Positions 41,724 to 42,262 of a stretch of DNA of 64,000 bases are shown here, one piece after another. This DNA comes from Actinomycetales bacterium (GTDB lineage Bacteria; Actinomycetota; Actinomycetes; S36-B12). Made by a program: the position numbers and the translations under genes. Position 1 is the stretch's first letter; each line of letters starts with the position of its first letter. The notes below the pieces were generated by a model. The model made no database searches. It saw nothing but the letters and a program-made list of their open reading frames with translations, and was not told the DNA's origin. The DNA lies in NCBI GenBank assembly GCA_018970025.1, contig JAGWXF010000006.1:1-64000 (forward strand), written 5' to 3'.

Positions 41724-42101
41724 CTACTTGCCGGCCTTCTTCTTGCCAGCGACGGTCTTGCGGGGACCCTTGCGGGTGCGCGCGTTGGTATGCGTCCGCT
41801 GACCCCGAACCGGCAGGCCCTTGCGGTGCCGAAGCCCCTGATAGCAGCCGATCTCGACCTTGCGGCGCACGTCGGCCGCGACCTCGCGGCGCAGGTCGCC
41901 CTCGACCTTCAGATTCGCGTCGATCCAGTCGCGCAGGGCAATGAGGTGGTCATCGGTGAGGTCCTTGGACCTCATGTCCGGGCTGATGCCGGTCGCCTCG
42001 AGGGCCCGAGCAGCCTGGGATCGGCCGATACCGTAGATGTAGGTGAGCGCGACTGCCATGCGCTTATCGCGCGGCAGGTCGACACCGACGAGTCGTGCCA
42101 T
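41724..42101 (-). CDS. rpsM: 30S ribosomal protein S13
   Basis: 125 aa. [20 protein letters not shown], the helix-two-turn-helix region [34 protein letters not shown] and a Lys-rich end ([11 protein letters not shown]) that contacts the P-site tRNA. It is preceded by an 84-nt region predicted to fold into a four-way junction, a candidate autoregulatory leader. Confidence 0.97.
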
Positions 42102-42139
42102 GTGGCGTTCTCTCTATCTGTGAGCACAGGGTTCGTGGA

Positions 42140-42223
42140 GGAGTGCCATTCCTGCCCGCCAAGGCAGGTCTTCGGCCCTGTGACCGAAGGTGGCGTCCCG
42201 CGAAGCGGGGGGTCGGGCACTCC
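42140..42223 (-). ncRNA. Candidate rpsM leader RNA, four-way junction
   Basis: An outer stem pairs GGAGTGCC (42140-42147) with GGCACTCC (42216-42223). Inside are three hairpins: CCTGCC/GGCAGG (42151-42156 with 42163-42168), CTTCGG/CCGAAG (42170-42175 with 42184-42189) and CCCGC-GAA-GCGGG (42197-42209). All arms are perfect. The element ends 38 nt before the rpsM start on the transcribed strand, where ribosomal operons often carry autoregulatory leaders. It is not a tRNA: there is no T-loop consensus and the loop sizes are wrong. I do not recognise it as a described motif. Confidence 0.5.
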
Positions 42224-42262
42224 ATTGACGACCGTCTCGGGTTGTCTCCCCGATCCCGGTTC

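Follow-up and report, generated by a model that had tools for sequence, protein, structure and literature searches.

The alpha operon encodes the ribosomal proteins S13, S11 and S4 together with RNA polymerase alpha, and for E. coli its control is understood. How is the same operon controlled in the Actinomycetes, a very large class of soil, water and host-associated bacteria that includes the mycobacteria and the antibiotic-producing Streptomyces? The question was raised by a 64,000-nucleotide stretch of an Actinomycetota genome assembly, called here the window, in which a structured RNA lies in front of rpsM (of the named records found for its relatives, the closest is L039, a 'Candidatus Nanopelagicales' MAG). 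A 2020 survey of ribosomal leaders reports rpsM-operon leaders in Clostridia and Fusobacteriales, and in its table the only leaders given for Actinobacteria are those of L17 and L31 (PMC7247131). A 2024 review describes only E. coli and Bacillus cases, and calls alpha-operon control in Bacilli unknown (PMC10931766). In the open-access papers searched we found no description of a regulator of the Actinomycetes alpha operon, and neither these papers nor Rfam 15 describe an actinobacterial rpsM leader.

A four-way junction between rpmJ and rpsM

On the minus strand of the window, the list of open reading frames gives the gene order infA, rpmJ, rpsM, rpsK, rpsD, rpoA, rplQ. The rpmJ gene (L36; 42283..42396, identified from its translation) ends an spc-like cluster upstream of the leader, and rpsM (S13; 41724..42101, also recognised by Pfam PF00416) is the first gene of a unit that continues with rpsK (S11), rpsD (S4), rpoA and rplQ. 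The gap between rpmJ and rpsM is 181 nt long (42282-42102) and contains the four-way-junction RNA.

When folded as an isolated RNA, the 84 nt at 42223-42140 (-) form an 8-bp stem that closes three hairpins, with an energy of -46.7 kcal/mol, as compared with -33.1 +/- 3.5 for shuffled sequences (z -3.86; 0 of 200 shuffles equalled it), and this junction fold was retained when the entire rpmJ-rpsM gap was folded. This bears out the sequence-only reading, which had described a closing stem and three hairpins in 84 nt between rpmJ and rpsM, 38 nt 5' of the rpsM start codon, and had placed them correctly. The closing stem, P1, pairs GGAGTGCC (42216..42223) with GGCACTCC (42140..42147), and several of its pairs covary at E<0.05 under a phylogenetic null. 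Within it, and likewise defined by fold and covariation on the minus strand, lie hairpin A (CCCGC-TTC-GCGGG, 42197..42209), which varies in sequence and length among relatives and whose stem contains the pair with the strongest covariation anywhere in the alignment; hairpin B (CTTCGG...CCGAAG, 42170..42189), the most conserved portion of the leader; and hairpin C (CCTGCC...GGCAGG, 42151..42168). Further downstream, a purine-rich AGAGAG (42110..42115, (-)) is the probable, if weak, Shine-Dalgarno sequence of rpsM, judged from sequence only.

No intrinsic terminator was found near the leader on its strand, which is without a terminator-like T run. A dispersed repeat was ruled out, as the source genome has a single copy of the leader. 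Scanning with all 4227 families of Rfam 15 (cmscan) yielded no match to the element, whether the window or any of 20 representative relatives was scanned, the outcome on which the claim of novelty had been made to depend, and relaxed scans returned sub-threshold matches only, which were inconsistent between relatives. A riboswitch was likewise rejected: the candidates, c-di-GMP-II-GCG (17.9 bits), sul1 (on the opposite strand), terC and sR4, were far below threshold and incoherent.

Covariation and distribution across the Actinomycetes

In a survey of 38 relatives with rpsM and 80 loci from genome contigs, the rpmJ-rpsM gap measured 130-260 nt in nearly all sampled members of the Actinomycetes, while the Acidimicrobiia and Coriobacteriia that were sampled have gaps of just 1-50 nt. 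Folding the gap of each relative revealed a common architecture with differing sequence. A first covariance model, R1, was built on 28 order-level relatives and retrieved the leaders of Streptomyces, Frankia, Cellulomonas and Mycobacterium at the same position. Among its 28 sequences, two-sided changes were seen at 21 of 29 pairs, and the covariation score was 0.509, against 0.178 for shuffled and at most 0.136 for slid versions; on every measure the real alignment beat each of the 500 shuffles and each slid version.

We then aligned 98 sequences from across the class, built a FastTree tree and compared an APC-corrected G statistic with a null in which the parsimony changes of each column were replaced on random branches, using code of our own that follows the principle of R-scape and is not R-scape itself. 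Sixteen column pairs reached E<0.05, all of them model base pairs and none outside the model, and the 23 top-ranked column pairs were all inside it as well, in alignments whose structure-fitted covariance models favour model pairs (the pseudoknot described below is not in the model). The compensatory changes that the sequence-only reading had asked for in relatives are abundant. G-U pairs outnumber A-C mismatches by 147 to 52, as fits an RNA made from the transcribed strand.

With a second covariance model, R2, matches came from 144 of the 198 Actinomycetes genomes searched, one match each in 143 and two in the remaining genome; E-values of the model searches come from shortened calibrations. 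Among 110 fetched matches, 108 precede rpsM and the other two are weak; the rpsM start was located in 107 of the 108, and in the last (L145) rpsM is present with its start unparsed. Outside the class, about 225 genomes gave three weak matches, around chance level and none near an S13 gene. We inspected 13 class members that lacked a model match, and in most of them the fold or the pseudoknot can still be recognised; the model is thus a strict one, and the leader occurs in at least 144 of the 198 genomes. Two of the 13 (L255, L261), with gaps of 12 and 81 nt, are clearly without the element. It is also missing from the Geodermatophilaceae (L054, L060, L062, L069), with gaps under 60 nt, and these lineages are useful natural null mutants in which the leader has been lost. 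Across the genomes covered, the leader is restricted to the class Actinomycetes and is present in nearly the whole of it. An RNA that covaries this strongly and is found nearly class-wide offers a concrete object for studies of regulation.

A pseudoknot upstream of the ribosome-binding site

In nearly all members, the final 6-7 nt of the hairpin B loop are complementary to a stretch 3' of P1. In the window these strands are CACAGGG (42176..42182, (-)) and CCCTGTG (42125..42131, (-)), supported by both complementarity and covariation. In most relatives the 3' strand follows P1 at a distance of about 6-8 nt, and in 90 of 92 sequences its first nucleotide lies 24-34 nt upstream of the rpsM initiation codon (~30 nt in the window). 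For the test of this pairing, the downstream strand was anchored by ACC alone, so that complementarity was left unused beyond the first two pairs, in an alignment whose covariance model does not contain the pseudoknot. Pairs 3, 4, 5 and 6 form in 89, 91, 89 and 87 of the 92 sequences (81, 79, 58 and 60 after shuffling), and pairs 4, 5 and 6 covary with E of 0.02, 0.00 and 0.02 under the phylogenetic null. The pseudoknot is conserved across the class. It ends 5' of the Shine-Dalgarno sequence, which stays outside the structure. As the 3' strand belongs to the element, the element ends at 42125 rather than 42140, the sequence-only reading having overlooked this strand.

The element resembles ribosomal-protein leaders in general, in that a covarying structure keeps a steady position upstream of a ribosomal-protein gene on the transcribed strand. 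Like Alpha_RBS of E. coli, it precedes the rpsM gene that heads the alpha operon and has a pseudoknot near the ribosome-binding site. The E. coli pseudoknot, however, takes in the rpsM ribosome-binding site (PMC10931766), whereas the actinomycete RNA is a four-way junction with a pseudoknot ending 5' of the Shine-Dalgarno sequence; its 3' strand lies too consistently upstream for an Alpha_RBS-type pseudoknot over the ribosome-binding site, and the Alpha_RBS covariance model did not match the element in the Rfam scans, even at relaxed E. The S4-Clostridia and S4-Fusobacteriales leaders (Eckert & Weinberg 2020, PMC7247131) were also predicted through covariation, before rpsM-rpsK-rpsD-rpoA-rplQ, but belong to different lineages, and their Rfam models are unmatched in the window and the 20 relatives. 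The L17-Actino-Proteobacteria leader (RF03132) serves the same operon in Actinomycetes, and we located it before rplQ in Streptomyces netropsis (L072); it differs in being short (56 nt), in its position, and in having no match in the window. Finally, the mycobacterial rpsO (S15) leader (PMC8470358) shares a 5' UTR pseudoknot and is a case of autogenous ribosomal-protein control in Actinomycetes, although for another gene and another protein, and with no resemblance to be expected. The earlier suggestion of an unreported actinobacterial leader is supported for the leader itself, through its covariation and its place at rpsM, and for its novelty within the sources covered: as far as Rfam 15 and the searched open-access literature go, a class-wide leader that combines a four-way junction with a pseudoknot is previously undescribed.

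Candidate ligands and proposed mode of control

Which protein might bind this RNA? We moderately favour the view, drawn from comparative sequence analysis, that the element is a cis-acting leader of the Actinomycetes alpha operon (rpsM-rpsK-(rpsD)-rpoA-rplQ) under autogenous control by S13 or S11, and as such it would probably act as a feedback valve on ribosome production. The lineages that have lost rpsD from the operon provide a natural experiment that can separate S4 from S13 and S11 as ligand. Most genomes have rpsD in the operon, but of 105 genomes from outside the order examined, 19 have a unit that lacks it. The order S13-S11-RpoA-L17, without S4, is seen in Streptomycetaceae and in several Micrococcales/Actinomycetales. 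The S4 of such genomes is a divergent, unlinked paralogue, 42-46% identical. In the class-wide sample, the leader was present in 16 of 19 genomes whose sole S4 is unlinked, spread over at least five families, and in 64 of 86 genomes with operon-type S4. Across fifteen leaders from rpsD-less operons, 92.4% of pairs are intact and two-sided changes affect 22 pairs; 14 of the 15 have the whole pseudoknot. The unlinked rpsD genes have no leader match, which rules out a leader that travels as a companion of rpsD. Because the leader is kept at rpsM when rpsD is unlinked and does not appear at the unlinked rpsD, it tracks rpsM-rpsK.

By the logic of autogenous control, we infer from the persistence of the leader without rpsD in cis that S13 or S11 is the better candidate ligand. 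The alpha operon of the Actinomycetes would then be under a different protein than that of E. coli, acting through a class-wide, undescribed leader, a proposal that we make tentatively and to which we give close to an even chance. Against it stands that S13 and S11, unlike S4, are not known as established autogenous regulators or as primary rRNA binders; if the proposal is true, proteins not known for autogenous regulation would control the alpha operon.

The S4 protein is itself a primary rRNA binder, which counts for it as the ligand of the same leader. It would act in cis in genomes that keep rpsD in the operon and in trans in those from whose operon rpsD has moved, and the leader would be a structurally unrelated counterpart of the E. 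coli alpha-operon leader. Apart from its continued place in the operon of most genomes, S4 is the proven regulator of the E. coli alpha operon (PMC10931766), and in Clostridia and Fusobacteriales the rpsM leaders are assumed to have it as their ligand (PMC7247131). We nevertheless regard S4 as a rather unlikely ligand, given that the leader is intact in genomes having only the divergent, unlinked S4 and that the latter genes are without a copy of it; the hint towards S4 in the sequence-only reading is weakened on the same grounds.

Two observations concern the fate of rpsD itself. In Streptomyces zagrosensis (L095 / L250), a remnant of an operon-type rpsD lies between rpsK and rpoA, covering the C-terminal part with 73% identity and one stop; it is a relic of the replacement of the operon rpsD by the unlinked S4 paralogue. 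The unlinked rpsD genes of Micrococcales (L239, L242, L246) are preceded by the motif CTGGGGTCTnnGCC and then a GC hairpin, and those of Streptomyces by different conserved segments; these upstream motifs are possible separate S4 leaders.

For control by S13 or S11, the proposed course of events is as follows. The hairpin B loop docks, as a pseudoknot, on mRNA immediately upstream of the ribosome-binding site. When S13 (or S11), the products of the first two genes, is in excess over free rRNA sites, it would bind the leader and stabilise the junction and pseudoknot, which border the 30S landing site on its 5' side. Initiation of translation would thereby fall for rpsM and for the genes coupled to it. 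Because the Shine-Dalgarno sequence stays outside the structure, we infer that repression would operate by steric blocking or by trapping of the 30S subunit, and not by Shine-Dalgarno sequestration.

Strongly folded mRNA 5' ends can be protective, and a structure at the spc/alpha boundary, without a terminator-like T run, could mainly serve mRNA processing or stability, dividing the transcript into its spc and alpha portions and shielding the 5' end of the rpsM mRNA. Yet protection alone needs no conserved pseudoknot at a near-constant distance from the start codon, and we consider this role improbable. More improbable still is a translation switch based on alternative pairing between the 3' strand of the pseudoknot (CCUCC) and the Shine-Dalgarno sequence (GGAGG). 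Many members do have a CCUCC strand with AGGAG a few nucleotides downstream, and sequestration is attractive in Streptomyces (CCUCC/GGAGG), but complementarity was no better inside a strand's own sequence (4.24) than across different sequences (4.19), so the pairing is not maintained; 35 members with a changed strand scored worse (3.88) than swapped ones (3.96 and 4.04), and with co-variation absent class-wide this form of sequestration was ruled out. Chance folding of a GC-rich spacer has a negligible probability, despite the GC-richness of the region, in view of the covariation against the phylogenetic null, the constant place across the class and the one copy per genome.

The rpmJ-rpsM gap holds further conserved segments upstream of the leader. 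At 42238-42252 (-), a second hairpin with a changing stem and a nearly invariant core, GGRGAGACAACC, lies between rpmJ and the leader in nearly all fetched members of the window's family; it occurs once in the source genome, was not seen outside the family, and is possibly a family-specific additional binding site. In Mycobacterium and related loci (L043, L045, L047, L048, L256, L258, L259, L265), the 5' part of the gap shares the motif ACAACTGAAT/C, which could mark a promoter or transcript start.
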